Virus record (IMG/VR): IMGVR_UViG_3300027801_002517
Location: 1 to 64,000 of that record
DNA from: a virus
DNA length: 64,000 nt
Direction: 5' to 3' (one strand)
Positions 44,266 to 60,088 of the stretch are shown one piece after another; position 1 is the first letter of the stretch, and each line of letters begins with the position of its first letter. Position numbers and translations under genes: made by a program. The notes beneath the pieces are model-generated. The model was not told the DNA's origin, made no database searches, and saw only the letters and a program-made list of their open reading frames with translations.

Positions 44266-44708
44266 GTTAACACCTCTAATAATTCTATAGCATCAATGTG
44301 CTCAAATTGGTGTACTGGTTTCTTACCAGTAATTCTGTAAAATTCCTTTGAATCCTCTTCGTCTTCGGTAATAACGTCTATAGTATTTGAAACTTCTAAA
44401 ACTTTTAGTATATCTTTATCATCCCATCTATTGTAGATATGGAAGAGTTTAAATTTGTTCACAATTTTATTGGCACTAAATGCATTATTCAGTGATGTTG
44501 TGAACAATGTTCCCGTGAAGTTCCACATATCCGCAGCGTTAAACATCCCAAAAGCTGGAATTAGAGGATTGTAATCAATATCATTATAGAACAGACTAGC
44601 ATCCTTTATTTTTCTACGTCGAATACTGCTATTGAGAGTTTTGAAAATATCTATGTTGCGATTTTCCGTATTTACTTTGTCTATATAAAAACCAATATTC
44701 TTAAGCAT
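44262..44708 (-). CDS. Hypothetical protein of the sugar cassette, 148 aa
   Basis: This is a 148-residue alpha/beta protein without membrane segment. The segments MWNFTGTLFTTSLNNA and KLFHIYNRWDDKDILKVLE alternate strands and helices in a way that could be half of a GT-B glycosyltransferase, but no sugar-nucleotide motif is visible. Its start lies eight bases before the stop of the reductase gene upstream (44,701-45,630), so translation is coupled. The function is unknown. Confidence 0.45.
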   Translation of the reverse strand: MLKNIGFYIDKVNTENRNIDIFKTLNSSIRRRKIKDASLFYNDIDYNPLIPAFGMFNAADMWNFTGTLFTTSLNNAFSANKIVNKFKLFHIYNRWDDKDILKVLEVSNTIDVITEDEEDSKEFYRITGKKPVHQFEHIDAIELLEVLT

Positions 44709-45630
44709 TCTTATTCTCCATATACCAATTAATTGTTGTTTGTAAACCTTCTTTGAGTTCTACCTGAGCTTCGAATCCCAATCGTTCTTTAGCACGAGAT
44801 GTATCTAAACATCGACGCGGTTGACCGTCTGGCTTGGATGGGTCATAAATAATATCTCCTTTATATCCCATAATATTTGTAATCTCTTTTACAAGATCCT
44901 TGATTTTAATTTCCTTGCCAGTACCAATATTAATAGGCTCTGGACTTAAGTTATCACTATTGATGGCCTTGACAATTGCTTGTCCACAATCTTCAACAAA
45001 TAAGAATTCACGAGAAGCTTCACCAGTTCCCCATAAAGTAATTGATGGATCACCATTTTCTATTGCTTGATGAACTTTCAAGATAAGTGCGGGAATTACG
45101 TGACTAGAAGTCAGATTGAAATGGTCGTGAGGTCCGTACATATTTACTGGAATTAAATTAACACCATTAAAATCGTATTGCTCATGATATGCTTCCACCA
45201 GTCTCATAAGAGTCTTTTTGGCAATACCATAAGGTGCATTAGTTTCTTCTGGATAACCATTCCATAAATCTTCTTCCTTAAAAGGTACAGGTGTGAATTT
45301 GGGATATGCACAAACTGTTCCAAGTAAAATAAACTTAGGGACTTTTGCTTTCATCGCTGAATGAATTATGTTTGTACCCATGATTAGATTGTCATACATA
45401 AACTTTCCGGGATTTTCCTGATTTGCACCAATACCTCCCACACTTCCAGCAGTATGTATAATGACATCTGGAACACTTCTACTGATAACAGTATCAGTGC
45501 ATCTACATTTACGTAAATCATAAGGCTTACTGCCTATTGACCTAACTTGGCTACTGCCAAATGTTTCTTGTAAAATTTTGGTCAGGTTTGTTCCCAAAAA
45601 TCCCGTACCACCTGTTAGTAATATTCTCAC
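44701..45630 (-). CDS. fcl: GDP-L-fucose synthase / GDP-colitose synthase-type epimerase-reductase
   Basis: This is a 309-residue extended SDR enzyme; the start is GTG with a GAGGAG ribosome site. Nucleotide motif TGGTGFLG near the N-terminus; catalytic Y134xxxK138 (APYGIAKK). The epimerase residues of the GDP-fucose synthase family are kept: C107 (GTVCAYP) and H177 (SSHVIPAL); the usual Ser of GSSC is Thr105. GDP-fucose synthase and colitose synthase (ColC) are homologous and both epimerise and reduce a GDP-4-keto-deoxy sugar. The ColD-like enzyme at 55,133 in the same operon makes the ColC reading attractive, but the sequence does not decide between the two. Gmd is not in the window. Confidence 0.8.
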   Translation of the reverse strand: MRILLTGGTGFLGTNLTKILQETFGSSQVRSIGSKPYDLRKCRCTDTVISRSVPDVIIHTAGSVGGIGANQENPGKFMYDNLIMGTNIIHSAMKAKVPKFILLGTVCAYPKFTPVPFKEEDLWNGYPEETNAPYGIAKKTLMRLVEAYHEQYDFNGVNLIPVNMYGPHDHFNLTSSHVIPALILKVHQAIENGDPSITLWGTGEASREFLFVEDCGQAIVKAINSDNLSPEPINIGTGKEIKIKDLVKEITNIMGYKGDIIYDPSKPDGQPRRCLDTSRAKERLGFEAQVELKEGLQTTINWYMENKNA

Positions 45631-45653
45631 TAGTAATAATCTCCTCTAAAATA

Positions 45654-46358
45654 TTATAATCCCTTTGCTAACCAACCACCATCAACGTATATATCTTGTC
45701 CTGTTATATAGGAAGATGCGTCGGATGCAAGAAAAACAAAAGTACCAACCAGATCCTTGGGTGTTCCCCATCTATTTAGCATTGTTTTTTGAGATCTCTG
45801 CTTGTATGTTTTTTCGTCTTGCCAACTATTCTTTGTCATCTCTGTAATAAAGTATCCAGGTCCAACATTATTAACTCGAATACCATATTTACCTAAATCT
45901 AGTGCGGCTGATTTCGTTAGCTGCTTTAAAGCACCTTTAAATGCAACATAAGCAGGATTGTTTGGAAAGGCCAGTTCTGCATTTAGACTAGTGACATTAA
46001 TAATTGATCCTCCACCAGCACTTTGCATTTTAGGAGTAATGTATTGTATTAATTTATATGGAGCTTTTAAATTTACTTCATATGTTTGATTCCAAAATTT
46101 ATCAGGATAGTCCACGAAATCTGAAACATGTGTGACTCCTGCATTGTTAACTAAAATATCAATTGTATCAAATTTATCAAGATGTGTTTTCACTTGATCG
46201 TGATTTGTTATATCACACAGAATTGTATCATCACTTTCAATGATATCCAACCCGATAACATTAGCACCAAATTCTCTTAATCCATCTGCAATAGCTTTGC
46301 CGTTTCCTCTAGCGGCACCAGTGACAATAGCCACTTTATGTTCCAATGAAAATATCAT
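45654..46358 (-). CDS. Short-chain dehydrogenase/reductase
   Basis: This is a 234-residue classical SDR with all core motifs: TG-AARGNG at 13-20 (cofactor binding), NNAG at 71-74, Ser124, Y137xxxK141 (NPAYVAFK), and a C-terminal DGG. It is probably NAD(P)-dependent. The substrate is unknown; in this operon it may reduce a keto group on a sugar precursor or a lipid/aldehyde substrate linked to the class III aminotransferase further up. Its 5' end overlaps the VOC gene by 4 bases. Confidence 0.8.
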   Translation of the reverse strand: MIFSLEHKVAIVTGAARGNGKAIADGLREFGANVIGLDIIESDDTILCDITNHDQVKTHLDKFDTIDILVNNAGVTHVSDFVDYPDKFWNQTYEVNLKAPYKLIQYITPKMQSAGGGSIINVTSLNAELAFPNNPAYVAFKGALKQLTKSAALDLGKYGIRVNNVGPGYFITEMTKNSWQDEKTYKQRSQKTMLNRWGTPKDLVGTFVFLASDASSYITGQDIYVDGGWLAKGL

Positions 46359-46786
46359 AGTTCTTCTACCAATTCGATTAGAGTTCCATCTGGGTCTTTA
46401 CAAAATGTAAGCATAACAGGAAAATCTGGAGATTTTTGTGGTTCGCATATAACAGTTACGTCATTTTCTAATAGCTTGTCATATAATTCCGAAAGGTTTT
46501 CTACAGTAACTGCGAAATGAGAACAACCAATATAGGTTATATCCTTATTTAATGTAATGACACCCTCGTGAGATTTATAATGTAATAACTCTACAAGCCC
46601 TCCATCATTATCTGTCATTTTAACAGTCCTGACATTCACTCCTTTTAGCCCAGAAAAGTTATCGATGTGCTGTCCAGACTCATCTGCTTCTACTATAATA
46701 GAGAATCCTAAAATGTTTGTATAAAAATGAATAGATTTTTCCAAATCTCCAACAGTTATTCCCACATGTCTAAATTTAACACTCAT
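46355..46786 (-). CDS. VOC (glyoxalase-fold) metalloprotein
   Basis: This is a 143-residue protein with two beta-alpha-beta-beta-beta modules and all four metal ligands in place: H7 (FRHVGITV), E66 (LVELLHY), H90 (SHFAVTV) and E138 (TLIELVEEL). Members of this superfamily include glyoxalases, epimerases and dioxygenases. Within a sugar operon it may be an epimerase or isomerase, but the reaction is not evident. It overlaps both neighbours by 4 bases. Confidence 0.8.
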   Translation of the reverse strand: MSVKFRHVGITVGDLEKSIHFYTNILGFSIIVEADESGQHIDNFSGLKGVNVRTVKMTDNDGGLVELLHYKSHEGVITLNKDITYIGCSHFAVTVENLSELYDKLLENDVTVICEPQKSPDFPVMLTFCKDPDGTLIELVEEL

Positions 46787-47493
46787 TTATTTTTCCTCGC
46801 AATTGAAAACAACATCGGTTCTTTTGAGAATCTAACTAATACATTAAACCAATGTGAAACTTCTAGTGGTGTGTCGTAATTTGGTTTGTATGGTATAGGC
46901 AACTTTCGGAATAATTTTATCAAAGGTTTCAGATAAGGGTATTTCCATAAAAAGGGTAACTGAAAAAAGTGTTCCACATAAATGTCTTCAAATCCTGCTA
47001 ATAACAGTGCTTCAGCAAGTGATTGTTTAGTCCAAGGTGTTACATGGGTATGATCACAATAGAATGGTCCCCAGTACGTATATTCCCATGCAGGTGTCAT
47101 CATTACAGCAGTGCCTCCTGGTTTTAAAGCCTCATAGGTCGCATTCATCAATCCCATAGGATTTTTCATATGTTCAATTACTGATTTAGTAAAAATCAAA
47201 TCATATTGCCCAGCATATTCTGGAGGTAAACTTTCAGATTCCAAATCAATTATTAAACTTTTGTGACCTTCAACCATATGAGTCATTAAATCAAATCCTG
47301 TGACATCAAATCCCATATCAGAGAAAACGTCTAAATATTCTCCTCTACCACATCCTAAGTCTAAAAACTTACCAGATGTCTTGCCTGTTCTTTTTACTAA
47401 TTCCTTTCCAAGTGCATATGGATATTGTGTTTTAGGAGTTTTTTTATCGGAATAAGTGATATCTAAATATTTTTCATTATTCATTATACTCAT
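46783..47493 (-). CDS. SAM-dependent methyltransferase
   Basis: This is a 236-residue class I methyltransferase. Motif I is LDLGCGRGEY at 44-53, followed by an acidic motif II region (GFDLM) and a motif IV-like FTKSVIEHM. The C-terminal third is rich in aromatic and Pro residues. The target may be a sugar hydroxyl or carboxyl, or a lipid, in the surface-sugar pathway. An internal ATG at 47,484 is an alternative start. Confidence 0.8.
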   Translation of the reverse strand: MSIMNNEKYLDITYSDKKTPKTQYPYALGKELVKRTGKTSGKFLDLGCGRGEYLDVFSDMGFDVTGFDLMTHMVEGHKSLIIDLESESLPPEYAGQYDLIFTKSVIEHMKNPMGLMNATYEALKPGGTAVMMTPAWEYTYWGPFYCDHTHVTPWTKQSLAEALLLAGFEDIYVEHFFQLPFLWKYPYLKPLIKLFRKLPIPYKPNYDTPLEVSHWFNVLVRFSKEPMLFSIARKNK

Positions 47494-48743
47494 TGTAGCA
47501 CTCCTTCCAAGACATCAAATGCCTCATTTATTGCTTCTACTGTTATAGTGAGAGGTGGTCCTAGCTTGATAGATTTACTCCAAGTATTGACTGGAAATAT
47601 ACCATTGTTGAAACAAAACTCAACCACTTCATCTGCTGTTTGTTTATCTTTAAAGATTATACCTGCAACCATTCCTTTAACATTTACATAAGAAATGGAA
47701 TCATATTTTTCTAATGTTCTCAGTCTGTCTTCAAATACTTCCACTCTTTTAGACAAGTCTTCTTGAAATTGTTTGCTTGTTAAGTAGTTTAAATTAGCTA
47801 ATCCTGCTGCACAACACAAAGCATTGCCTGCATGAGTACTACTCAAGTTAGTATCGACATCAATAATTTCTTTAGTAGATAGAACAGCAGACATTGGCAA
47901 TGAAGAAGTTATAGCTTTACCCAAACAAATAATATCTGGTTCATAGTCACCATATGTCATATATCCGTACAGTTTTCCCATTCTATAAAATCCAGATTGA
48001 ATTTCATCAAAGCAAACCAATGCACCATTATCTCTAGCAAATTTGTATAAATTTTGCAGGTATGATTGTGGATACATTTGTGCGGTTGGTCCTTGATATG
48101 TTTCAATAAAGAATGCGGCAATTTGTTCTGGTGGTGGTAATAAACTTGCATCGAATGCCTCGTCTTTATCGTATGGAAAATCAATAAATATAATATCGTC
48201 ATCAACAAGATTGGACCACTTAGTGCTATCCTTGTTGCCACAGATTAGATCAGAGCCAACAGTCCTACCATGATAACTACCATTGAAACTGACAATATAT
48301 TTTTTGTCATTCTTTTTAGCCCATATCTTTATTAACCTATAGGCAGCATCAGTGGCTTCACTACCTGAATTTAATAGAACAACTTTTTCAAAATGGTCAG
48401 GCGAACAATCTAAAAGTTTTTCTGCAAATTGTTTTCTAATATGCGTATAGTACTGATATGAGTATACTAAATCATCATCCAATTGTTTCTTAATTGCATT
48501 ATTTATTTCAGAATTAGAGTGTCCTGCATTAGATACAAAAATACCCGAAGAAAAATCTATCCATTTGTTTCCATCTTCGTCAAAAATAGAAAAGTCTTTT
48601 GCTCTATTCCACCAGATAGGAGATTGAGGATTTATAGAAGTAGATTCATAGTTATACCTTATACTATCTCGTTCCTCATTATAAAGTTTAAAGTCATTTC
48701 TAATAATTCGATGTTTAGTTTCTATCAGATTTACACTCGGCAT
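47490..48743 (-). CDS. Class III PLP-dependent aminotransferase
   Basis: This is a 417-residue enzyme of the ornithine/GABA/glutamate-semialdehyde type. Features: SGSEATDAA at ~126-134, the D-E-I/V-Q motif with D246 (CFDEIQSGF), and the PLP lysine K276 (CLGKAITSSLP). The substrate is unknown. In some polysaccharide clusters such enzymes aminate a keto sugar or make an amino-acid substituent; the neighbouring CMP-sugar synthetase, methyltransferase and VOC genes suggest a shared pathway. Length is normal for the class. Confidence 0.85.
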   Translation of the reverse strand: MPSVNLIETKHRIIRNDFKLYNEERDSIRYNYESTSINPQSPIWWNRAKDFSIFDEDGNKWIDFSSGIFVSNAGHSNSEINNAIKKQLDDDLVYSYQYYTHIRKQFAEKLLDCSPDHFEKVVLLNSGSEATDAAYRLIKIWAKKNDKKYIVSFNGSYHGRTVGSDLICGNKDSTKWSNLVDDDIIFIDFPYDKDEAFDASLLPPPEQIAAFFIETYQGPTAQMYPQSYLQNLYKFARDNGALVCFDEIQSGFYRMGKLYGYMTYGDYEPDIICLGKAITSSLPMSAVLSTKEIIDVDTNLSSTHAGNALCCAAGLANLNYLTSKQFQEDLSKRVEVFEDRLRTLEKYDSISYVNVKGMVAGIIFKDKQTADEVVEFCFNNGIFPVNTWSKSIKLGPPLTITVEAINEAFDVLEGVLQ

Positions 48744-49459
48744 TTATTTAAGCTTTCTAGCAAAACATTTTCTTGGATTTCCAACTGATGAGTTAATAAA
48801 TCAAATTCATACTGGGCATCGACTTCAGTAATAAATTCTGATTCATATGGAAGGATTTTGGTTGAAAAGGCAGAATTGCCAGACTCTATAGTTTCCCTTT
48901 TAGTAATATCTAAATAACCATTAGGTTGATATGCTTTAGGAAATTTTTGTCTTGGTAAATTTGTATAATCTTTTATACCATCAAAATCCTCAAAGAATCC
49001 TTCGCAATATCCTTCTTCACCTAATTTAAAAACCTTATAGGGAGATTCTGGTAATTCATGCATTGACCTCAATGCACTCATTCGGTGCCTGTTATCAAAA
49101 TAAAACTCTATACAATTGTCTATGTTCTCTGGATTCCGCAAAGGCGTTGTTGGTCTGACATATGCAACATCATTAACATCGTATAACTGAAAAAAGTGAT
49201 TAATAACTTGCCAATCTGATGAGTTATCCTGAGCATATTCTTCTGGTCTCTTTAAAATCTCTGCCCCATAAGATTTGGCAACCTCTGCAATTTCATCGTC
49301 TTCTGTTGAGACAACAATTTTATCAATTAAAGAACTCATCTTACATGCTGTAATACTATAAGATATGAGAGGATGTCCTTGTAATAGTTTAATGTTTTTT
49401 CTTGGAACACCTTTACTACCACCTCTAGCGGGAATCAATGCAATCAATTTTTTAGACAT
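48731..49459 (-). CDS. neuA: CMP-nonulosonate (sialic/legionaminic acid) cytidylyltransferase
   Basis: This is a 242-residue protein with the N-terminal CTP-binding signature of the family (IPARGGSKGVPRKNIK). A later YVRPTTPLRNPENID segment resembles the RPTSPLR motif, and QPNGYLDI follows the family pattern near the C-terminus. It couples CTP to a nonulosonic acid to give CMP-sugar, the donor for sialyltransferases. It lies beside the NeuB-type synthase gene and in the same operon as a GT29-type transferase, giving synthase, activation and transfer steps. Confidence 0.85.
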   Translation of the reverse strand: MSKKLIALIPARGGSKGVPRKNIKLLQGHPLISYSITACKMSSLIDKIVVSTEDDEIAEVAKSYGAEILKRPEEYAQDNSSDWQVINHFFQLYDVNDVAYVRPTTPLRNPENIDNCIEFYFDNRHRMSALRSMHELPESPYKVFKLGEEGYCEGFFEDFDGIKDYTNLPRQKFPKAYQPNGYLDITKRETIESGNSAFSTKILPYESEFITEVDAQYEFDLLTHQLEIQENVLLESLNKCRV

Positions 49460-50273
49460 TTACTGTTTTCCTTAATTTCTTTGCGATTGGGATCTCTGAA
49501 TCATACACTACCTTCTTACCATCACCCAACATCAATTCAATTTTACGAATTGCCTTACATAGTGCGTCAGCATTCTCGATAGAAGCAGCTTGATCGGAAC
49601 CATAGTCTGCTCTATCGTGTGTAATATGGAACTCTATACATTCTGCACCTATTGCAGTTGCGGCAACACATGCGTCGTGACCATTATAGTGGTTGGAAAA
49701 TCCAACCTTACATGACGGATGTTGTTGCTTTAGAGTTTTAATGTGAAGAAGATTTAATTCTTCTGCTTTGGTAGGGTAGGTACTAGTACAAGCAAGAATA
49801 AATTCTATGTTATCTAAAATAGACATAGCAATATTTATTTCTTCCTCTGTACACATCCCAACCGATAAAATAATAGGCTTTCCTGTTTCGTTTAGCTTGT
49901 TCAAAAAATTAGTGTTTGTTACAAGTGCAGATGCCACTTTGTGATATTTCACATCAAGGCATTGTACATCATCTATACTTTTCACATCCCAACAGGAAAC
50001 AATAAAATCTAATCCCATATCTTCAGAATACTGTTTAAGACCTTTATATTGTTCAATAGAAAATTCTAATCCTTCTTTTTGATCTCTATTAGTATCTCCC
50101 CAAGGTGACTCTCTTGGTGTATCTAATTCTTCTTTAGTATAAACACTTTCAATATCTCTCTTTTGAAATTTTACAGCATCCGCCCCTGCTTGATATGCTT
50201 GTTTAATTAATCGTTTGGCCAGTTTAATACTTCCATTATGATTAATTCCAATTTCCGCAATGATATAAGTCAT
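49452..50273 (-). CDS. neuB: NeuB-type nonulosonic acid synthase, lacking SAF domain
   Basis: NeuB enzymes condense phosphoenolpyruvate with a six-carbon amino sugar to a nonulosonate. The ATG at 50,273 is preferred over 50,324: it has AGGAAA upstream, begins MTYIIAEIGINHNG as in the family, and avoids most overlap with the SDR gene. The 273-residue chain covers the TIM barrel (IIAEIGINHNG, KFQKRD, GFSNHYNGHDA, IEFHITHDRADYG). It stops where the C-terminal SAF (antifreeze-like) domain of typical ~345-residue NeuB proteins should begin. That domain normally closes the active site of the partner subunit, so activity may need another protein. Confidence 0.75.
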   Translation of the reverse strand: MTYIIAEIGINHNGSIKLAKRLIKQAYQAGADAVKFQKRDIESVYTKEELDTPRESPWGDTNRDQKEGLEFSIEQYKGLKQYSEDMGLDFIVSCWDVKSIDDVQCLDVKYHKVASALVTNTNFLNKLNETGKPIILSVGMCTEEEINIAMSILDNIEFILACTSTYPTKAEELNLLHIKTLKQQHPSCKVGFSNHYNGHDACVAATAIGAECIEFHITHDRADYGSDQAASIENADALCKAIRKIELMLGDGKKVVYDSEIPIAKKLRKTVNV

Positions 50274-50295
50274 AACATTTCCTATTGTTTTTGGT

Positions 50296-50943
50296 TTATA
50301 AGACATAATTTGATTTTCCGCCATCGAAATTAATGGTTACACCCGTGAGATATTTAATGTCTTTATCTACAATAGAAGATATAAAATCACCTATTTCTTT
50401 TGTTGTACCAACTCGTTTAACTGGTATTCTATCCTCAAGTTTAGGAATATCCTTACACAAAGTTTTCAATCTATCTGTGTATATTGGACCCGGTGCAATG
50501 TTGATACAAGTAATTCCTCTATCACCTAAAATTTTGCTCAAGCATTTAAAAACACTAACAAATGCAATTCGGTACGCATTTGACAACATAAGTTTAGTAT
50601 CTGGCTCTTTAATGTTGTATGATGTTATCAGAAAAATATATCCGTTATCGTTTATTTGTGCCTCTTGGATAATTTTCAAAAACCCATAGAACAGTTGATT
50701 ATGGTATAAATCACAATCTTCTTTAGTAATTTCATGAAATGGTTTGGAGGGTGGACCACCAGTATTTAATACTAAAATGTCTATAGGATCTTGATCATTT
50801 AGAAAAGATTCTATTTGTTCTATATTAGATGTATTCAATTCTTTAGAAGAAGTTGCTTTAACATCACAACCTATAGATACTAAAGAATCTGTAATTCCTT
50901 TTCCTATGCCTCTACTACCAGCAGTAACTAATGCTTTTTTCAT
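50296..50943 (-). CDS. Atypical SDR without the YxxxK motif
   Basis: This is a 215-residue Rossmann protein with TAGSRGIG at 7-14, a DGGKS C-terminus and NTGGP in place of NNAG. The classical catalytic YxxxK is absent: Y124 is followed by RIAF. The pattern is like FabG-like SDRs with KEPDTKLMLSNAYR-type helices (LSNxxR), in which catalysis uses other residues. It sits between two NeuB-type synthase genes, so a nonulosonate-related role is inferred. It overlaps the upstream gene by 4 bases. Confidence 0.65.
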   Translation of the reverse strand: MKKALVTAGSRGIGKGITDSLVSIGCDVKATSSKELNTSNIEQIESFLNDQDPIDILVLNTGGPPSKPFHEITKEDCDLYHNQLFYGFLKIIQEAQINDNGYIFLITSYNIKEPDTKLMLSNAYRIAFVSVFKCLSKILGDRGITCINIAPGPIYTDRLKTLCKDIPKLEDRIPVKRVGTTKEIGDFISSIVDKDIKYLTGVTINFDGGKSNYVL

Positions 50944-51656
50944 TTTAAAACTCCATTGCCACAGGCACTCTTACATATGTTTATATTTTCAATTAGTTCC
51001 TCGACAGTATCTATACCTACTGCCCAAATATTATCTGGAAACTCTACATCTGAATTATCATCTTTAACATAAAAAAGCATATCGGTTGGATCGTAACAAG
51101 ACGCTAAAAGTAAATTGATTGGATTGTCACAATGACTGCCATATCCTACATGGTCCCAGTAATTTCTAAGAGTTTTTATAATAGATAAATTTGTTTCTTC
51201 TAATTCTACAGAATCTCGATTTGTATATATTAGCCTAATATCACCCTCAATATCAGATAACAACTCAGATAATTCTAATATATCTTTTTCAGAACACAAA
51301 CCCACGGAAACCAGAATGGGTTTTTTAGTTTTTGCTAATGTAGTAATGAGATTCTTATTAAAGACTCCATCTCGTATTACTTTATAAAAGTCTACCTGAA
51401 GTTCTTCAAAAAAATCAATTAGCTCTTCGTTTGTGATAGCAACACCAAAAAGTTTCCCTTCACTCTTAGTCATTCCATATAAATCATCATAATGACTCCA
51501 ATCAAAATATAGATGTGATTTTCGTTGTCTATGATCTTCTTCTCTGATTTGAAATGTCAATCCATCCAGCCCTTCAACAGAACATAAATTCCTGACATAC
51601 TTTTTTGCCAATTCATAGTCACCTAAATGATTTTGTCCAATCTCTGCAATTATCAT
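50940..51656 (-). CDS. Divergent NeuB-like TIM-barrel protein
   Basis: This 238-residue protein begins MIIAEIGQNHLGDYELAKKY, the NeuB signature, but several later motifs differ: FQIREED for FQKRD, and no SDHT/EKHxT motifs. It too lacks the SAF domain. It is a paralogue of the protein at 49,452. It could be a second synthase for a different nonulosonate, or a partner or regulator of the first. Confidence 0.6.
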   Translation of the reverse strand: MIIAEIGQNHLGDYELAKKYVRNLCSVEGLDGLTFQIREEDHRQRKSHLYFDWSHYDDLYGMTKSEGKLFGVAITNEELIDFFEELQVDFYKVIRDGVFNKNLITTLAKTKKPILVSVGLCSEKDILELSELLSDIEGDIRLIYTNRDSVELEETNLSIIKTLRNYWDHVGYGSHCDNPINLLLASCYDPTDMLFYVKDDNSDVEFPDNIWAVGIDTVEELIENINICKSACGNGVLK

Positions 51657-51670
51657 AATACATTTCCTTA

Positions 51671-52375
51671 TTAATTATTAAGTATTAATTCTTTTAATCG
51701 CTCATCAACTGTTAGTATGTCGTCTCTTTCCAAAAGATTTTTAAAAGCAAAAATTTGTTTTTTAATTGCCATATCACCATGTGTTCCTCCAGTTGGTGGA
51801 GGAGGTCCATCTAAAGGATTGTAAAAACCATCGGCATATGCTTTATCTGTTTGGTAAAAGTCAAATCCAGTGACGTATAGCTCTGCAACTGGACACTCTA
51901 TCAACATAAGAACACTCAAAGTGCCAGTATATGGCTGACAACCTATCATATTATATATCTCTTGATATTTTTTTACACCTATCCACTCAAAGGGAATATC
52001 GTTTGTATTAATGGATTCTGCATTATGAACAACATCACCAATATGATCTTCAGCCCAAGACATATAATTATCTTCTTTGATTCTCGTACCATATATCAAA
52101 GGACATACTAACATTTTAAGAGCATCAAAATCTTCTTTATAATTTTCAATGTTATCCTTCAGTCCGGGAATCCAATCAGTTCCAAAGTTATGAAACAATA
52201 TATCAGTTCTTGACCCATAATCATTGTTCAGTTCATCATTTGTCCAAAAGTGATTTGGTCTACATACTACATCAAATGAATCAATAAGCTCCCCATCATT
52301 ACTACCTTTAAGACCAGTCGATGGACCTACAATTACTACTCTTTTATCGCCTACAAAATTACATAACACAGACAT
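51671..52375 (-). CDS. GT29-type sialyltransferase-like glycosyltransferase
   Basis: This is a 234-residue protein with the marks of family GT29, best known from eukaryotic sialyltransferases. The L-motif region is residues 13-41 (VVIVGPSTGLKGSN..., then IDSFDVVCRPN); YGSRTDILFHN follows at 53-63. An S-motif-like stretch lies at 148-173 (PYTGTLSVLMLIECP, then YVTGFDFY), with a late His (H199). There is no signal peptide or membrane anchor, unlike Golgi enzymes. With the CMP-nonulosonate synthetase and synthases in the same operon, it probably transfers the activated sugar to a virion or host-surface acceptor. Confidence 0.65.
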   Translation of the reverse strand: MSVLCNFVGDKRVVIVGPSTGLKGSNDGELIDSFDVVCRPNHFWTNDELNNDYGSRTDILFHNFGTDWIPGLKDNIENYKEDFDALKMLVCPLIYGTRIKEDNYMSWAEDHIGDVVHNAESINTNDIPFEWIGVKKYQEIYNMIGCQPYTGTLSVLMLIECPVAELYVTGFDFYQTDKAYADGFYNPLDGPPPPTGGTHGDMAIKKQIFAFKNLLERDDILTVDERLKELILNN

Positions 52376-52378
52376 GTT

Positions 52379-53116
52379 TTAGTTTCCTTGGTAGATGGGA
52401 ATTGGAATCATCTTGTGTTTGTTTTGATTGTGTAGTCTGTTGTAGATTTCTGTAACTTCCTTCTGTCTATCTGTCAATTCAGACACACCATCATATTCCA
52501 TAACCCATTCCAGTTCCTCATAGGTGGCACCAATTTGATCTTCATCTGTCCTACCATCATCCCACAAACCATCAGTCGGAGAAGCAACCAGAATCTCTTC
52601 ACATACACCAAGTTGTTTTGCCATTTCACGAACATCTGTCTTAGTAAGATTAGCAATCGGTGAAATGTCAACTCCTCCATCGCCATACTTTGTGAAGAAT
52701 CCAACGCCAAAGTCTTCTACTTTATTTCCTGTCCCGACTACAATACCATTATGTACTTGTGCAATTTGATACAACGTAGTCATACGAAGTCTTGCCCTAC
52801 TATTTGCTAATGCAAGGTCGTCACATTCAATCGCATCTAAACCAGAGATGAAAACATCATACATAGCAGAAAGATTGATATCTCTATGAGACACATTCGG
52901 ATGGCTATCTTTTAACCATTCAATATGGTTCAACCCACGAAGATGCTGATCAGGTGCTTGATGAATAGGCATAGTGAGTAGAATTGTGTCGATATCGGTT
53001 AAAGCACAAATCTTTGAAGTAAGAGCGGAGTCAATTCCTCCTGATACTCCAACAACTAAACTCTTGATGCCATACTGATCACAATATTGCTTAATCCATT
53101 CAGAAATCTTATTCAT
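52379..53116 (-). CDS. nadE: NAD synthetase (ammonia-dependent)
   Basis: This is a 245-residue PP-loop enzyme with SGGIDSA at 25-31, GTGNKVEDF, and KYGDGGVDISP, followed by a GLWDDGRTDEDQIG segment, all typical of NadE. It amidates nicotinic acid adenine dinucleotide to NAD. In this operon it may supply cofactor for the UDP-sugar dehydrogenase and SDRs, or restore NAD during infection. It overlaps the dehydrogenase gene by 4 bases. Confidence 0.85.
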   Translation of the reverse strand: MNKISEWIKQYCDQYGIKSLVVGVSGGIDSALTSKICALTDIDTILLTMPIHQAPDQHLRGLNHIEWLKDSHPNVSHRDINLSAMYDVFISGLDAIECDDLALANSRARLRMTTLYQIAQVHNGIVVGTGNKVEDFGVGFFTKYGDGGVDISPIANLTKTDVREMAKQLGVCEEILVASPTDGLWDDGRTDEDQIGATYEELEWVMEYDGVSELTDRQKEVTEIYNRLHNQNKHKMIPIPIYQGN

Positions 53117-54360
53117 CTTGCAGTGTCTCCAACAGAAATTAGTTCAACACCATCTTGTTCTGACATCATTCTCCACGGATCAATTACAACTGATCCTTCA
53201 GGAAACTTATAATCAAGGAACTTGTCATGATTTGTTCCAATAAAGAATACGGCTTTCTCATTGAGTGGTGGTTTACCAGCATCAACCCACGGATCATACA
53301 TCTCAGCATCAACATCATGTTCCTTCATCATATTCTTCATTAGAACTGATGGACTTCCTACAGTTAGATTTGTTTCTTTTTTGAAACACTTACCAAGAAT
53401 AATAGGCTTCAGTCCAGTTTCCTTCGACTTAGCAATTAGCATATTTCCCAACCATTCGGTTTGTTTTTCTCGACAAACCATCATACTATCATACCAGTCA
53501 TAACTGAGATCAAGTTCTTGAGCCATCCACGACAGTGCGATATTGTCTCTTGGATGACAACCGCCACCGTCTCCCATCCCACCTAAAAGATACTTAGTGC
53601 TAATAAGTCTATCACTAGCAAGGAACATACCTCTCATAACATTGTCGCAGTTAACATTATCGAGTTTATGTGCTGCTTCCATGATAACATTAGCAAGATT
53701 AATCTTCATAGTAATGTAAGTATTATAAGAGACCTTGATCATTTCCGCTTCTTCAATGGAGCACTCATACACTGGTCTGTCGTGTATGGTTGCATAGAAA
53801 CTTTTAACTGTTTCTACGGCTTCTTTATCGTCAACACCCAAAAGAACAAACTCTGGCTCAGTAAAGTCCTTAATCGTAGTTCCCATTGCAATAAAGAATG
53901 GATTATAACACAGCTTAATATGCTCACTTAATAGAGGCTTAATTTCCTTTCGGACTGTGCCAGGCAGAACCGTTGAGATGATAACGACAATTTTGTCCTC
54001 ACCGTTTCTATCGATTGCCTCTGACAAAGTTTTTAATCCTGACTTCAACCATGCATAGTTAAAGTTTACTCTTTCTTCGGGAAGTCGAGTTGTTCCTTCG
54101 TAACGAGGTTCGTGAGGAGTCTGAATAGGAACAAAGATAATATCACTTTTTTCAACAACGTCATCTACATTAGTGAAGTTAATATTATGATTTTGTAAGC
54201 GTTCCGGAGCACCCTCTTCTCGATATGGCAGTTGCTTTGTATCGAGAATAGTTTTAACACCATCATTAACGTCATAACCATATACAGTATGTCCTTGCTC
54301 GTCAATAGCTAAAGCACAAGGTAGTCCTAATTTTCCCAGTCCAATAAAACCTATGTTCAT
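53113..54360 (-). CDS. UDP-sugar (glucose/ManNAc-type) 6-dehydrogenase
   Basis: This is a 415-residue enzyme: Rossmann start MNIGFIGLGKLGLP, middle domain with K209 and N213 (AEMIKVSYNTYITMKINLAN), and catalytic C268 (GGGCHPRDN). It oxidises a UDP-hexose to a UDP-hexuronate with two NAD. The exact sugar (Glc, ManNAc, GlcNAc) is not clear by eye. It shares one base with the glycosyltransferase gene upstream (TAATG). Confidence 0.85.
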   Translation of the reverse strand: MNIGFIGLGKLGLPCALAIDEQGHTVYGYDVNDGVKTILDTKQLPYREEGAPERLQNHNINFTNVDDVVEKSDIIFVPIQTPHEPRYEGTTRLPEERVNFNYAWLKSGLKTLSEAIDRNGEDKIVVIISTVLPGTVRKEIKPLLSEHIKLCYNPFFIAMGTTIKDFTEPEFVLLGVDDKEAVETVKSFYATIHDRPVYECSIEEAEMIKVSYNTYITMKINLANVIMEAAHKLDNVNCDNVMRGMFLASDRLISTKYLLGGMGDGGGCHPRDNIALSWMAQELDLSYDWYDSMMVCREKQTEWLGNMLIAKSKETGLKPIILGKCFKKETNLTVGSPSVLMKNMMKEHDVDAEMYDPWVDAGKPPLNEKAVFFIGTNHDKFLDYKFPEGSVVIDPWRMMSEQDGVELISVGDTAR

Positions 54361-55112
54361 TACATAATTCCTTTCACTTTAACTGCATCTTCGTACCTAA
54401 GATTGCGATATTTTGGTTGATCAAATTCTGGTCGAGAAACTTGAAACATCTCTGTTCTTTCATTCCATGTTTCACGATCTACTTCTTCTGTATCCATTGA
54501 TCCTGTATAGTCCGGGTTGTCCGGTCTATCATGAAAAATTACGATTCGATTTTCTACCCTTTCAATACCTAGCATAGCACCAACCTCTGAGACCCATGTA
54601 TCATTATGGGCCTGAAGAGAGAAGTGTCCAGTGACTTCATACATTTTTCTGGATATAATTGGAAATGTGTTGATGTCTTTTGCGTCGTCATTTCCTGTCG
54701 ATGGATTTAAAACGACAATATCATTTTGATATTCGGCCAGAATGTCATCCCAGCCGCTTTCAGCCATTGTAGTATCATCATTAAACAAAAATAACATATC
54801 CCCTCTAGAAACATCACAACACTCATTAACATACTTGTTTAGATCGATATATCCTCTAAAACGCTCACCTATTATAACGTAAATGTCCACTTTATCGAAA
54901 GGTAATTCTGTGATCCTAGAGATACTATCAACATCATCAGAATCAAATCTAATTATGATTTCAGCTCGACTTGCATCAGTGGCTGTTTCTGCAATCGAGC
55001 TACAAGTATTAAGGAGATTACTAAACCTTTTACGAGACGGAACTAAAAAAGAAACCAGTTTAGCTTTCCCTCTTTTTAAAATTCTACGTTCATTATCGTC
55101 AATGACTGACAT
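54360..55112 (-). CDS. GT2-like glycosyltransferase
   Basis: This is a 250-residue GT-A-type protein: VSFLVPSRKRFSNLL start, RFDSDD, and a DxD-like NDD at 111-113 (FLFNDDTT). The C-terminal part contains HDRPDNPDY. Family 2 transferases use nucleotide sugars to extend glycans. Its partner sugar is unknown; the neighbouring genes make UDP-hexuronate and GDP-deoxyhexoses. Confidence 0.65.
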   Translation of the reverse strand: MSVIDDNERRILKRGKAKLVSFLVPSRKRFSNLLNTCSSIAETATDASRAEIIIRFDSDDVDSISRITELPFDKVDIYVIIGERFRGYIDLNKYVNECCDVSRGDMLFLFNDDTTMAESGWDDILAEYQNDIVVLNPSTGNDDAKDINTFPIISRKMYEVTGHFSLQAHNDTWVSEVGAMLGIERVENRIVIFHDRPDNPDYTGSMDTEEVDRETWNERTEMFQVSRPEFDQPKYRNLRYEDAVKVKGIM

Positions 55113-55132
55113 TTAAATTCTCCTAAATTATA

Positions 55133-56272
55133 TCAATTAAATTTGTTAACTATTGATGAGACCATCTTGATCTCTGATTCTGTTAAATTGTGATTATTGG
55201 GTAGATAAAATCCATAATCGCTAACGGTATCTGCATTTGGTAAACGTACTTCTCCGTACCTCTTAATCCAAAACGGTTGTCGTCCAAGAGACCCACATAT
55301 AAGTGGTCTTGTTTCTATGTCATTTTTTATAAGCTCACTAACTATTTCAGATCTATTCTGACTTATTACTGGGTAGGCAAAATTTGAAATAAACTTACTA
55401 TCGGTAGACTTTGGGGGATTCCAAAATGGGTTATCTATTAACTCCCTATATAGGTTATAATTATTATTTCGTATTCTGACAATTTCATCAGAGGTCTTCA
55501 GTTGATTAATACCCAAGAAAGCCTGGAGGTCAGTAGACCTGAAGTTAAATCCCATATAGTGAAACCTATATAAAGCATCAAATGTGTCTTCTTTATCTAT
55601 ACGAAACTCTGGATCAACATCTCTTTCCCAGCCATGACTCCTAATAGCCTTCAGTATATTATAAAGATGGGAATCATTAGTTGAAATAATACCACCTTCT
55701 ATAGTTGATAAGTGATGTCCGAAGTATGTGGAGAAACATGACATTTCTCCTGTAGTACCTAATTTTCGACCTCCATAAGATGAACCAAAAGACTCACAAG
55801 CATCTTCTAGTAATGTAATGTTGTATTTTTTACATGTATTAACAATGAGATCCATTTCAGGAACAAGACCAAGTACAGATACTAATATAGCACATTTTAT
55901 ATTATGTGTCAATGCCAATTGTTCAAAATAAGATAAGTCTAATGATAGATCTTTCATATTGCAGTCACACAATATAGGAGTTAGTCCAAGTTGCACAACT
56001 GGAGCTAGATCAGTAGCCCATGAAACAGCAGGTACAATTACTGAGTCACCTTTATTAAGAGTGCCTTTTTCCAACAATGCTTGCAACATCATCATTACAG
56101 CAGAAGATCCAGAATTTACTGATACACAATGTTTATTGCCTAAGTAATTCGACCATCCTTCTTCGTAATCAACTGTTAAACGACCTTGAGTCAACTTAGG
56201 ATGTGTACGTAGCCAATCCGCTAAAGTATCCATTTCTTCATTATTTATTGTATCTCTAACCAATGGTATCAT
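55133..56272 (-). CDS. colD: ColD-like GDP-sugar 3-dehydratase (PLP lysine replaced by His)
   Basis: This is a 379-residue DegT/AHBA-fold protein that lacks the PLP-anchoring lysine: the region reads STYFGHHLSTIEGG, with His186-His187 where aminotransferases have Asn-Lys. This replacement is the signature of sugar 3-dehydratases such as ColD (GDP-4-keto-6-deoxymannose 3-dehydratase) and E1, which use PMP/PLP without a Schiff-base lysine to remove the 3-hydroxyl. The likely product is GDP-4-keto-3,6-dideoxymannose, precursor of colitose. The epimerase/reductase at 44,701 could finish the pathway. Confidence 0.75.
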   Translation of the reverse strand: MIPLVRDTINNEEMDTLADWLRTHPKLTQGRLTVDYEEGWSNYLGNKHCVSVNSGSSAVMMMLQALLEKGTLNKGDSVIVPAVSWATDLAPVVQLGLTPILCDCNMKDLSLDLSYFEQLALTHNIKCAILVSVLGLVPEMDLIVNTCKKYNITLLEDACESFGSSYGGRKLGTTGEMSCFSTYFGHHLSTIEGGIISTNDSHLYNILKAIRSHGWERDVDPEFRIDKEDTFDALYRFHYMGFNFRSTDLQAFLGINQLKTSDEIVRIRNNNYNLYRELIDNPFWNPPKSTDSKFISNFAYPVISQNRSEIVSELIKNDIETRPLICGSLGRQPFWIKRYGEVRLPNADTVSDYGFYLPNNHNLTESEIKMVSSIVNKFN

Positions 56273-56274
56273 TT

Positions 56275-57369
56275 TCAGCCTTCTATGAAATATTCGTTAA
56301 TCGTATGAATAATATAAGTCTGTTCTTCGTCTGTCAAGCAATATGCTGATGGAAGAGATATACCCATATCAAAAGCCTTATTACTCACTGGCAAATTCTT
56401 ATCAGCAAAATTCATATGTTTATAACACGGCTGCTGGTTTAGTGGATAAAAGAACTCCCTTGTTTGAATGCCTCTTTTTAAAAGATGATTCATTAGTTCT
56501 GACTTTTTAGATGTCAAAAATGATGTAAACCACCAAACAGGACTACAAAAATCATTCACTGTTATTTTAGTTAAACTGTTGTCAAGCTCATTGTTGTACC
56601 TATCATAAATATGTTTTTTCTTAGTCTTTATTCTATCAAGTTTATTCATCTGAGCAATACCAATGGCGGCTTGCATCTCAGTAAAAGCAAAATTATAACC
56701 TATAGCATCATGCTTGAATCGACCTTTGACTAATCTTCCGTGATTCTTTAGTTGGTAAACCTTATTGCGTATTTTTGTAGAATCAGTTAATACAATTCCG
56801 CCTTCGCCACATGTGATAGTTTTGTTTCCGTAAAAAGAAAGTATACCACATTCTCCAAAGGTTCCAACATGACGACCTTTCCATTTTACTCCCACGCCCT
56901 GTGCCGCATCTTCAATTACAGCAAGGTTATTTTCTTCAGCAATTTTAGTAATAGCATCCATATCACAGGACTGACCATATAAATGAACGGGCATAATAGC
57001 CTTAGTTCTATGGCTGATTAATTCCTCTATTAACGAGGTGTCAATACAAAGATTTTCAGGACTAATGTCACATAGAACTGGTGTTGCACCAGCCAACAAG
57101 ACAGCATTCGAAGATGCTATAAATGTCATATCTGGAACAATAACCTCGTCACCCGGACCTATACTAAGTGCCTTTAAGCAACAATATAATGACATTGTCC
57201 CATTAGTTATAGCAATAGCATATTTAGCTCCAGTAAGATCTCGAATCATCTGTTCGAATTCTTCAGTTAGATTATGTTCTGTAACATAAGTACTGTCAAT
57301 CACCCTAGTAAGCTGTTCTAGCTCTTCACCATCTATCCAAGGCTCAATCTGCGGTATAAAGTCCCTCAT
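56275..57369 (-). CDS. GDP-perosamine synthase-like aminotransferase
   Basis: This is a 364-residue DegT-family enzyme with the PLP lysine K183 (SFYGNKTITCGEGG) and VIEDAAQGVG at 151-160. The NKTITxGEGG form is typical of perosamine synthases, which aminate C4 of GDP-4-keto-6-deoxymannose. It would share that substrate with the ColD-like enzyme next door, so the phage could direct the same intermediate to two sugars. The start overlaps the upstream gene by 26 bases but has an AAAGGA ribosome site. Confidence 0.75.
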   Translation of the reverse strand: MRDFIPQIEPWIDGEELEQLTRVIDSTYVTEHNLTEEFEQMIRDLTGAKYAIAITNGTMSLYCCLKALSIGPGDEVIVPDMTFIASSNAVLLAGATPVLCDISPENLCIDTSLIEELISHRTKAIMPVHLYGQSCDMDAITKIAEENNLAVIEDAAQGVGVKWKGRHVGTFGECGILSFYGNKTITCGEGGIVLTDSTKIRNKVYQLKNHGRLVKGRFKHDAIGYNFAFTEMQAAIGIAQMNKLDRIKTKKKHIYDRYNNELDNSLTKITVNDFCSPVWWFTSFLTSKKSELMNHLLKRGIQTREFFYPLNQQPCYKHMNFADKNLPVSNKAFDMGISLPSAYCLTDEEQTYIIHTINEYFIEG

Positions 57370-57727
57370 AAGACTTTTGTTCCTTTACTACTGATTTAGA
57401 AATATTGTTTATTTCATTTTTAATAAGAAATCTATTATCATTAAGTATAGCATCTAAGCGAGCATGTTTAATAAACTCATCACCAAAAGTTTCATTGTCC
57501 TCCATATCCCTAATGATATCTTCAGTATCCCAAAGCTCTGTATTTATTTGCAACAATTTATCATAAAGTTCTGTAGGAACATCGTGATCCTGCATATTAG
57601 ATTTTAGAATTTTTAGTTCTTGGTTGATATAATACAATTTTGTTTCATCTGTGATGTGATCTCTTTTTATCTCAAGTATTGTAACCTTGTCAACAAGCTC
57701 ACCTACTGATACTTCAATTTTTGGCAT
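57344..57727 (-). CDS. DUF6165-like protein
   Basis: This is a 127-residue, all-helical acidic protein beginning KIEVSVGELVDKVTILEIKR, the pattern of the DUF6165 family. Members are small, commonly sit in polysaccharide gene clusters and are of unknown function. It overlaps both neighbours (14 and 26 bases), so it is tightly coupled to the glycosyltransferase and aminotransferase genes. Confidence 0.65.
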   Translation of the reverse strand: MPKIEVSVGELVDKVTILEIKRDHITDETKLYYINQELKILKSNMQDHDVPTELYDKLLQINTELWDTEDIIRDMEDNETFGDEFIKHARLDAILNDNRFLIKNEINNISKSVVKEQKSYEGLYTAD

Positions 57728-58568
57728 ATTCTAAAATCCTTTTCTTGTGAAAATCTATATTCAAGAAATTATCATCCCAAGATATATTTGTACTATCCAA
57801 CTGTGGTTTATAGGTAGCAAACCAATCATGAATAATGAAATGTGGTAAGGAATAGTGCTTGAATAATCTAACCATATTTGGCGTTATAACAGGAATTGAA
57901 TTAACTAATAGAGCCTCATAGTTTCTATGAGTATCATACCCAGCACCCTCTAAGCATATCGTGTACCTAAATTTATTAAGTTGTGATAAATAGTCTATAA
58001 AGGATAATTTATTTTTTTCACTATAAACAAAATCTAAAGATTTCAAATGATCAATAAATCTCTGTCTTTCAGGATTAGTCGATGCAGTATGAAATGGAAG
58101 ATAGAACATATCTAATTTATCTTCCCATCTTGACTTTAACGATTGTTGATTTTTCAAGACTGCTTGATTACCACCATCACGTTCTATCTCTTCAAACCCA
58201 ATTGGTATTGGAATTATTTTGTCATTATGAACAGACGGTGGATTTGTACAGAACCAGTATTTTAAATTTGTATTATTTAATATATCAAGGTAGGATTGAT
58301 CACCATTACGACCAACTGTGTATGAAGAAATACCACTAATAAGTGTAAATTTATTTTTTATATTAGGAAGTACATTCTTCTGAAAGACTCCGTTGTAGAT
58401 CTCGTCCGTTTTAACGAATATTATGTCATTTTCTTTAACAGTGGATGGGTCTATAGAATCAACATTGTGTAGACGCGAAACTCCAGCAGATCTATAGAAG
58501 TCTGCAGAGTGGTCAATAATATGATCTGCCACAGTTGGCATCCAATTGTAATTAATTAAGTCAATCAT
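57714..58568 (-). CDS. Exostosin-like glycosyltransferase
   Basis: This is a 284-residue protein. The C-terminal half holds FRYTICLEGAGYDTHRNYE and then ALLVNSIPVI, the exostosin/GT47-type pattern in which a conserved E-A and S-I-P-V-I follow an R/H-N nucleotide-sugar segment. The N-terminal half is alpha/beta. It probably adds a sugar to a surface glycan. The donor is unknown. Confidence 0.55.
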   Translation of the reverse strand: MIDLINYNWMPTVADHIIDHSADFYRSAGVSRLHNVDSIDPSTVKENDIIFVKTDEIYNGVFQKNVLPNIKNKFTLISGISSYTVGRNGDQSYLDILNNTNLKYWFCTNPPSVHNDKIIPIPIGFEEIERDGGNQAVLKNQQSLKSRWEDKLDMFYLPFHTASTNPERQRFIDHLKSLDFVYSEKNKLSFIDYLSQLNKFRYTICLEGAGYDTHRNYEALLVNSIPVITPNMVRLFKHYSLPHFIIHDWFATYKPQLDSTNISWDDNFLNIDFHKKRILEYAKN

Positions 58569-59274
58569 ATTTAATAACTTTCCATGTGTTCAAACTGTTC
58601 TGACCCAAAGGTTGATTTCTAAAATCGTGATAAAATATTTTATCTTGTTTGGCGTATATATCTATCAGGGTCTTAAAAGAACTCTCCATGCAATGAATCT
58701 CTTCTGCTTCTTCAATAATCTTAATGAAATGAAAAACATTTTCAGAGATATCATTTTCTACAATATGTAATGATCTATCTATAAAGTGCTTTCTGTCAAG
58801 CTCAAATCCCCTGTCTACATCTTCATGAACAAATATGTAAGGCTCATTATTAGGGTTTAACTTATTAAAAACTCTTTCTTCTTCTTTTGGATCTCGTTCA
58901 AGATAGAAATATTCATGTCTCACATCATAAGGTATATTTACTTGTTCATAGAAAAATTCCCAACAATTCTTGTTTAGTTCTTTCTCAGCGGCTGGGCCTG
59001 GATAGTACTGATGCCCAACAGTTAACATATACTCAGGCTTCTCTGTCTCTATAATTTTTTTTACATCTTCGTATTCATTATCCTTACTTATTTCCCAAAC
59101 CTCAATATCATCGTTGTCTCTATACATATATTCTATCATATTAAAATAATTCGATTTTGAAAATACCGCTATTTTTTCATAAGCAGTATTTTTGCCGATA
59201 TATCGAACCATTCCATTGCAATCAAAATGATCGCCTAAGCCTAAGTGATGATGGATAAATAACTTACTCAACAT
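58561..59274 (-). CDS. Hypothetical protein, possible GT-B-type sugar enzyme
   Basis: This is a ~237-residue protein. The ATG at 59,274 is preferred over a TTG at 59,286: it gives MLSKLFIHHHLGLGDHFDCN, a start like GT-B nucleotide-sugar enzymes (G-L-G-D-H loop), with GGAGA just upstream. Later motifs (YIFVHEDVDRGF, AEEIHCMESSFKTLIDIY) also fit the second half of a GT-B fold. No family is certain. It sits between two glycosyltransferase genes. Confidence 0.45.
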   Translation of the reverse strand: MLSKLFIHHHLGLGDHFDCNGMVRYIGKNTAYEKIAVFSKSNYFNMIEYMYRDNDDIEVWEISKDNEYEDVKKIIETEKPEYMLTVGHQYYPGPAAEKELNKNCWEFFYEQVNIPYDVRHEYFYLERDPKEEERVFNKLNPNNEPYIFVHEDVDRGFELDRKHFIDRSLHIVENDISENVFHFIKIIEEAEEIHCMESSFKTLIDIYAKQDKIFYHDFRNQPLGQNSLNTWKVIKYD

Positions 59275-60088
59275 ATTCTCCACCAAAGGTAGCTAATTCT
59301 GGTTTGAAATTCTGCTTTATAAATTCAAGATATCCCTTGCTATTTTCTATATCATCATATACAGCAGGGTCAAATTCTATACCGTCTATTATATCAATAG
59401 GAGTCGGAGTGTCATTAAAGTTTAAATTATTAACAACTGGGTCATATCTTTCATTAATGTAATCATTAGCGTGATTCCAAGTAACACTTTCATAATGCTT
59501 ATACCATAATTGCTTGAGAGCATAAAATCTTTTATTAATAGATTGTAAATGTATAACACCAACGTCTTTGGTCCACACTTTAGGTAAATTTATAGTTGGA
59601 AGCCTTGGTGTGTGATATTTATAAAGAGACATATCAAACTTTTCACAGTGCTCCAACGATACAAAAAATGTTCTATAATTGTCTACATACATAGGGTCTT
59701 GACGGATAGTATCTAAATTTCCCACAACATTAAACCAGTACAACTGGAGATCGTGCGACACACAAAGATTGGTTACCTCCTCCCAATTGGTTAACAAGTT
59801 AGTACTAAGTAGCTCATCAGCGTCTATAGCAAGGACTAAATCTGCTCCCTGCTCTCTGGAATATTCCAGCATAGTAGATCTATTCCTTGACTCACTAAAC
59901 TTTGATTCCTGCCCCTCAAATACCATAGCATGATCTTGGAAGTTTTCCTTAATTACATTTGTAGTATTGTCTGTAGAGTTATCATTATAGAACACCCATT
60001 TATCTACAGGGTATTGATTCCAATATTTAAAAACATGTGGTAATATAATACTTTCGTCTTTTACCATTACATTAGCATGAACGATCAT
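59264..60088 (-). CDS. GT2/GT92-like glycosyltransferase
   Basis: The start at 60,088 (MIVHANVMVKDESIIL) is chosen over 60,133 because the longer N-terminus only repeats the tail of the gene upstream and lacks a family match. Core motifs: YNDNSTDNT at 34-42 and DAD at 89-91 (VLAIDADELL), the DxD that binds the nucleotide sugar with a metal. There is no membrane anchor. It probably transfers a sugar in the surface-glycan pathway. Confidence 0.65.
   Translation of the reverse strand: MIVHANVMVKDESIILPHVFKYWNQYPVDKWVFYNDNSTDNTTNVIKENFQDHAMVFEGQESKFSESRNRSTMLEYSREQGADLVLAIDADELLSTNLLTNWEEVTNLCVSHDLQLYWFNVVGNLDTIRQDPMYVDNYRTFFVSLEHCEKFDMSLYKYHTPRLPTINLPKVWTKDVGVIHLQSINKRFYALKQLWYKHYESVTWNHANDYINERYDPVVNNLNFNDTPTPIDIIDGIEFDPAVYDDIENSKGYLEFIKQNFKPELATFGGEYVE

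Follow-up and report, generated by a model that had tools for sequence, protein, structure and literature searches.

The subject of this analysis is a 234-amino-acid protein encoded on the minus strand, at positions 51671-52375, of a 64,000-nucleotide stretch of DNA (the window) comprising positions 1-64,000 of IMGVR_UViG_3300027801_002517, a 157,369-base virus record from an environmental metagenome. On sequence grounds this protein is a member of a divergent GT29-like subfamily and not a canonical GT29 enzyme, and the probability that it acts as a soluble GT29-like transferase with a cytidine monophosphate (CMP)-activated nonulosonate donor is placed at roughly 80%, an estimate that covers family and donor, with the target weighed separately. 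Across viral contigs, a strong link is observed between genes of this kind and those encoding NeuA and NeuB. The following genes of the window carry the argument:

51671-52375, minus strand: predicted GT29-like CMP-ulosonate transferase, 234 amino acids, no membrane anchor (PF00777, A3 profile, AlphaFold 2 model with Foldseek, transmembrane check)
50940-51656, minus strand: short NeuB-like protein (PF03102, 52 bits; first Lys replaced by Thr, second metal His by Tyr)
49452-50324, minus strand: NeuB-type nonulosonate synthase without a SAF domain, 290 amino acids (PF03102, 214 bits; PDB NeuB, 9e-29)
48731-49459, minus strand: CMP-nonulosonate synthetase of NeuA/PseF type, 242 amino acids (PF02348, 82.8 bits; PDB CMP-NeuNAc synthetase, 1.9e-30)

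The source of the record is a large tailed phage, matches having been obtained for terminase, major head protein, tape measure, a UvsX-like recombinase and ThyX. The open reading frame of interest is intact, the plus strand at the same position being full of stops, and it sits in a run of minus-strand genes. Only 3 bases separate it from the upstream NAD-synthase-family gene and 14 bases from the short NeuB-like gene that follows and, since several neighbors also overlap, the genes are tightly packed; NeuB lies three genes away and NeuA four.

Family assignment of the 234-residue protein

An initial annotation, made by eye from the sequence, had proposed a soluble GT29-type enzyme at this position, with an L-motif at residues 13-41, an S-motif at residues 148-173 and a late His, and the computational evidence upholds the observation, with the late His as a candidate catalytic residue. 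Firstly, the profile search against GT29 proposed there as a check gave a PF00777 (Pfam GT29) score of 30.9 bits, against a curated cut-off of 23, over residues 12-63, which constitute the L-sialylmotif. Matches to PF00777 at E ≤ 0.01 were also found in 41 of 50 relatives of the protein, and none of any kind in 14 control genomes. Secondly, the S-motif placed at residues 148-173 (PYTGTLSVLMLIECPVAELYVTGFDF) aligns collinearly with the corresponding regions of ST3Gal1 and CstII; the alignment of a profile built from fifty relatives (A3) extends into it and a second stretch of ST3Gal1 is collinear with it, while its score standing alone is weak. Thirdly, the late His, a candidate for the catalytic His of motif VS, corresponds to H199 in GGTHGD, which by alignment alone falls one column off the ST3Gal1 His in 'GVHDGD', and a His is retained in this region in 57/65 relatives. 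Lastly, no transmembrane-like segment was detected in the protein.

Comparisons with proteins of known structure point to the same group of enzymes. A single-sequence search of the PDB returned the GT42 enzyme CstII as its best match (7e-4) in a long collinear alignment over residues 11-181, while a ten-relative profile ranked ST3Gal1 first (9e-6), followed by ST8Sia3, ST6Gal1 and then CstII. With the A3 profile, significant matches were exclusively to GT29 and GT42 sialyltransferases, namely ST3Gal1 (6.6e-12), ST6Gal1 (1.7e-9), CstII (3.2e-7), ST8Sia3 (1.5e-6) and ST6GalNAc2 (2e-6). The AlphaFold 2 model, with a mean predicted local distance difference test score (pLDDT) of 95.5 and a predicted template modelling score of 0.93, has a predicted GT-A variant 2 fold, and the first 28 Foldseek matches to it in the PDB are all GT29 enzymes (best E 3.8e-7), with GT42 next. 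The four CstII residues N31, N51, Y156 and Y162, which are donor-binding positions, have predicted counterparts in N41, N63, Y174 and Y180 in the single-sequence alignment. A weak match to a Ktr protein over the S-motif region was dismissed, as it consisted of two short stretches with poor independent E-values.

Weighing against this assignment, Foldseek template modelling scores are moderate, at about 0.5-0.6, and the first Asn of the L-motif (Asn9 in CstII; 'VGN' in ST3Gal1), a donor-binding residue in known enzymes, is Pro18 here. Among 65 relatives the same position holds Pro in 51, Ser in 10 and Asn in 2. In a tree of viral and bacterial rows, which covers those two parts of the phylogeny initially proposed, the query falls within a 13-row, all-viral clade (support 100/99), while bacterial rows with the canonical Asn (L161-L167) lie outside it. 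It is the prevalence of Pro at the first L-motif Asn, together with the position of the canonical-Asn bacterial proteins outside the viral clade, that leads us to file the protein in a divergent subfamily.

Close relatives were not found in bacterial genomes, the genome collection yielding 7 distant loci, and PF00777 occurs in 3/296, 5/292 and 4/294 genomes of three bacterial phyla, each set counting its center genome. Searches of INPHARED by tblastn gave no match to the protein, and PHROGs holds no family for it. Among viral relatives, GT29-like domains are doubled in one locus (L065:6375-9512), occur as three tandem genes in L046, are fused to GT2 domains in L069 and L072, and in L098 lie in the same reading frame as a 2-hydroxyacid dehydrogenase domain.

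Eukaryotic Golgi enzymes are indeed the best-known members of GT29, as initially stated, but members outside eukaryotes are not new: a bacterial group has been published (Petit et al., 2018; PMC5811610) and a phage protein in BFVD already bears the GT29 name. The eukaryotic enzymes ST3Gal1, ST6Gal1, ST8Sia3 and ST6GalNAc2 provide the best profile and structure matches, and share with the phage protein the order of L- and S-motifs, the fold and, apparently, the late His. In contrast to them, the phage protein is short (about 234 amino acids), has no anchor and carries Pro for the first L-motif Asn, and the disulphide pattern joining L- and S-motifs in animal GT29 was not seen at its aligned positions. 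The bacterial proteins, described as a basal group with neither anchor nor disulphide, resemble it in having GT29 motifs without a transmembrane anchor or disulphide cysteines, but were described without phage context (PMC5811610). CstII, from Campylobacter jejuni, is likewise a small soluble enzyme with a long collinear alignment and four active-site positions in common, but its profile and structure scores are lower than those of GT29, its Asn9 is replaced by Pro, and PF06002 (GT42, CstII type) has no match in the phage protein up to E = 1. The BFVD entry A0A6J5NLG3, from an uncultured Caudovirales phage and labeled 'Glycosyl transferase family 29', shares phage origin and a structure match (E 9.6e-6), but is 492 amino acids long and 18% identical. 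A GT29 gene is also listed in a table for a coccolithovirus (PMC5371807), a large DNA virus that is eukaryotic-algal and is compared here at the level of the gene.

Linkage to the proposed donor pathway

Of the 45 GT29-like viral loci that are well flanked, defined as lying in more than 11 kb of DNA, 39 encode NeuA or NeuB no more than 8 kb away; the genes often touch or overlap, and intervals of zero or a few bases are frequent. Over all 62 loci the number is 46; the other 16, some of which are short fragments, count against the proposed coupling. Control loci were fetched through the exostosin-like protein of the same operon using a four-sequence alignment (n = 26), and GT29 and NeuA/NeuB were found jointly in 5, neither in 20 and a NeuA-like gene alone in 1 (Fisher p = 9e-5, an optimistic value because the count for one of the five relies on a neighboring locus of the same contig and because some contigs are near-duplicates). 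The lone NeuA-like locus itself encodes a candidate GT29-like protein of divergent sequence (A3 profile E = 2.5e-5). A control scan with the GT2 gene recovered one relative only.

Pfam and PDB matches place a CMP-nonulosonate synthetase and a synthase in the same operon as the transferase, as initially annotated, and the NeuB residues expected to contact phosphoenolpyruvate or metal are kept when aligned to NmeNeuB (K52, K129, H212 and H233). NeuB scores 234.6 bits against TIGR03569, whose equivalog cut-off is 399.65, with a match that stops before the C-terminal domain; it falls under the NCBIfam equivalog cut-offs of both N-acetylneuraminic acid (Neu5Ac) and pseudaminic acid (PseI) synthase; it lacks the C-terminal SAF domain; and it has Leu where the 'SGE' of NmeNeuB has Glu. 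In addition, no match to a uridine diphosphate (UDP)-N-acetylhexosamine 2-epimerase (NeuC/LegG, PF02350) was found in the 157-kb record, which may be incomplete. The initial description of a complete make-and-transfer set was therefore overstated, which leaves the host or an unrecognized enzyme as the source of the six-carbon precursor. NeuA, for its part, reaches 116 bits against NCBIfam PseF, under the cut-off. Taken together, these scores, the loss of the SAF domain and the missing epimerase suggest a product that is probably some nonulosonic acid other than plain Neu5Ac, probably derived from host hexosamine.

To judge by its substituted residues, the short NeuB-like protein is probably not a working synthase by itself and is perhaps a partner or regulatory subunit. 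A shorter, degenerate NeuB-like copy beside an SDR gene is seen in three distinct phages, namely that of the window and those with loci L020:13482-14297 and L055:9367-10113.

Replacement of the cassette in a sister phage

The genes described above belong to a larger block with conserved flanks, the remaining features of which are as follows:

45337-55149, minus strand: replaceable cassette (no nucleotide counterpart in sister record G001 by blastn breakpoints and blastp table)
44701-45630, minus strand: GDP-fucose-synthase-like epimerase, one conserved flank (GDPFucSynFcl, 296 bits, under cut-off; 59% amino acid identity in G001)
45654-46358, minus strand: SDR-like oxidoreductase of the cassette (open reading frame; synteny)
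46355-46786, minus strand: VOC/glyoxalase-like protein of the cassette (NCBIfam glyox_I-type match under cut-off; synteny)
46783-47493, minus strand: S-adenosylmethionine-dependent methyltransferase of the cassette (PF13489; synteny)
47490-48743, minus strand: class III aminotransferase, also present next to NeuA in related loci (PF00202, 239 bits; synteny)
50296-50943, minus strand: SDR oxidoreductase adjoining the short NeuB-like gene (PF13561)
52379-53116, minus strand: NAD-synthase-family protein, encoded immediately 5' of the GT29-like gene (PF02540, 169 bits; TIGR00552 above cut-off)
53113-54360, minus strand: nucleotide-sugar dehydrogenase of UDP-glucose type (PF03721; TIGR03026 above cut-off)
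54360-55112, minus strand: GT2-like glycosyltransferase at the upstream edge of the replaced block (PF00535, weak; absent from G001)
55133-60755, minus strand: conserved flank of DegT aminotransferases, exostosin-like and other glycosyltransferases (about 92% nucleotide identity to G001 over 55149-60487)

By blastn, the sequence on either side of the cassette aligns collinearly with the sister record, IMGVR_UViG_3300034407_003109 (G001). Nucleotide identity is 91.9% over 55149-60487, 83% in the kilobase that follows and about 65-72% in the other matched stretches, among them 44724-45337 and the part from 64145 on. No nucleotide match to G001 exists between about 45.3 and 55.1 kb, and of the twelve window proteins in this stretch only NeuA has a blastp match, at 29%, to a G001 cytidylyltransferase. 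At the end of the DegT gene, identity drops abruptly from 92% to nothing, which points to recombination, mis-assembly at the breakpoints near 45.3 and 55.1 kb being another possible cause.

What G001 holds instead is a 232-amino-acid GT29-like candidate, a DHDPS-family protein, KdsA (PDB, 9e-51) and the cytidylyltransferase, a content suggesting that a different CMP-ulosonate module, for another acidic sugar, takes the place of the window cassette. The candidate scores 2.5e-5 with the A3 profile (19.8 bits, against 6.8 for the best other, non-GT29 reading frame) and gives a weak hhalign match. It has no other viral relatives and folds with a pLDDT of 36.3 without an alignment, so that profile and hhalign are what identify it, tentatively, as a very divergent GT29-like protein.

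Further observations concern neighboring and distant genes. The dehydrogenase and NAD-synthase-family genes (52379-54360) overlap by 4 bases in an order also kept in L002, and we guess that the pair could make and amidate a uronic acid. The GDP-fucose-synthase-like gene at 44701-45630 and a GMD-like gene recognized by eye near structural genes (G000:C1:126386-127492) suggest a split GDP-fucose pathway. A 5382-amino-acid protein encoded amid structural genes at 14581-30729, with repeats resembling RCC1-type units by eye, is possibly a giant tail or fiber protein, and three adjoining reading frames at G000:C1:68457-72328 resemble, by eye, a DNA polymerase III alpha chain that is split into parts around an exonuclease. 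Lastly, G000:C1:83405-84694 (L117:405-1694) encodes a phage DUF1501 protein (PF07394, 311 bits) whose N-terminus is Tat-like; proteins of this family are common in Planctomycetes, a possible hint to the host.

Proposed mechanism, target and alternatives

In the proposed mechanism, the adjacent NeuB would condense a host-derived hexosamine with phosphoenolpyruvate and NeuA would add CMP to the product, which the aminotransferase, methyltransferase and SDR enzymes probably tailor. The resulting CMP-activated nonulosonic acid would serve as donor for the transferase, which as a soluble enzyme of the cytosol, with the GT-A (variant 2) fold and of the GT29/GT42 group, probably caps a glycan built by the neighboring phage glycosyltransferases. 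None of the operon proteins has more than one transmembrane-like segment, and no flippase, polymerase or exporter-like membrane protein was recognized among them, which makes it probable that the glycan is assembled on a virion protein in the cytosol or passed to host machinery. Virion proteins are our leading guess for the target, at somewhat short of even odds, with a host envelope glycan a serious contender, and DNA or some other acceptor improbable. Receptor hiding or mimicry of the host surface, as initially suggested, is a hypothetical role.

A host-surface target (lipopolysaccharide or capsule), serving for example to block superinfection, is compatible with the enzyme assignment and carries considerable weight. 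Nonulosonic acids are common in bacterial envelopes and several nucleotide sugars from the operon would be usable by host machinery; however, with no export-type membrane protein in the operon, export would depend wholly on the host.

Rather unlikely is the alternative that the protein transfers Kdo (3-deoxy-D-manno-octulosonic acid) or another CMP-ulosonate, with the nearby NeuB and NeuA serving a different transferase of the operon. A plant member of GT29 is, on genetic evidence, a Kdo transferase (PMC11288761), G001 couples a candidate divergent GT29-like protein with KdsA, and the identity of the phage NeuB as a Neu5Ac synthase is not secure. Set against this, no KdsA-type gene was seen in the window cassette, where NeuB is three genes away, and the link of GT29 with NeuA and NeuB recurs over many contigs.

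Glycosylation of phage DNA, for which there is precedent in phage glycosyltransferases that glucosylate DNA (discussed in PMC12619734), is very improbable given that no hydroxymethylase-type base-modifying gene was recognized by eye in the list of reading frames (no systematic search was made), that the thymidylate synthase matched is an ordinary ThyX, and that glycans are the known acceptors of the GT29/GT42 group. Least probable of all is a Maf/MptE-like (DUF115) nonulosonate transferase, hinted at by MptE-like phage proteins further down the ranking of structural matches (E about 0.008 to 0.3), by a weak MptE-like match in one fused GT29 relative and by an MptE-like gene following the GT29 gene in Prochlorococcus L052, but largely refuted by the far better GT29 scores in the A3 PDB search and Foldseek and by the lack of any Pfam PF01973 match in the window protein.

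Returning to the GT29-like nonulosonate transferase, the whole cassette would be exchangeable between phages, so that related phages would differ in acidic sugar, apparently including an eight-carbon, KdsA-based one. A broader and more doubtful proposal is that phages swap 'outer acidic sugar' cassettes within a conserved glycan operon, nine-carbon (NeuB/NeuA/GT29-like) against eight-carbon (KdsA/cytidylyltransferase/GT29-like), and so vary their coat as bacteria vary O-antigens. To our knowledge, no nonulosonic acid pathway has been described for virion glycosylation in mycobacteriophages. The likeness to that system lies in phage-encoded glycosyltransferases decorating virion proteins, as outlined in PMC12619734 (citing Freeman, 2023). 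No description of a phage sialyltransferase with NeuA/NeuB was found in the open-access literature, most subscription papers being outside its scope, and neither the coupling of these genes in a phage cassette nor the replacement of that cassette seems to have been described there.

If correct, this assignment would broaden sialic-acid-type chemistry to include phages, with the sugar both made and transferred, and would define a group of small soluble enzymes, with Pro for Asn in the donor motif, between the GT29 and GT42 sialyltransferases. Replacement of the cassette offers a testable case of phage surface-glycan diversification through recombination, and suggests that phages exchange the outer sugars that they build.
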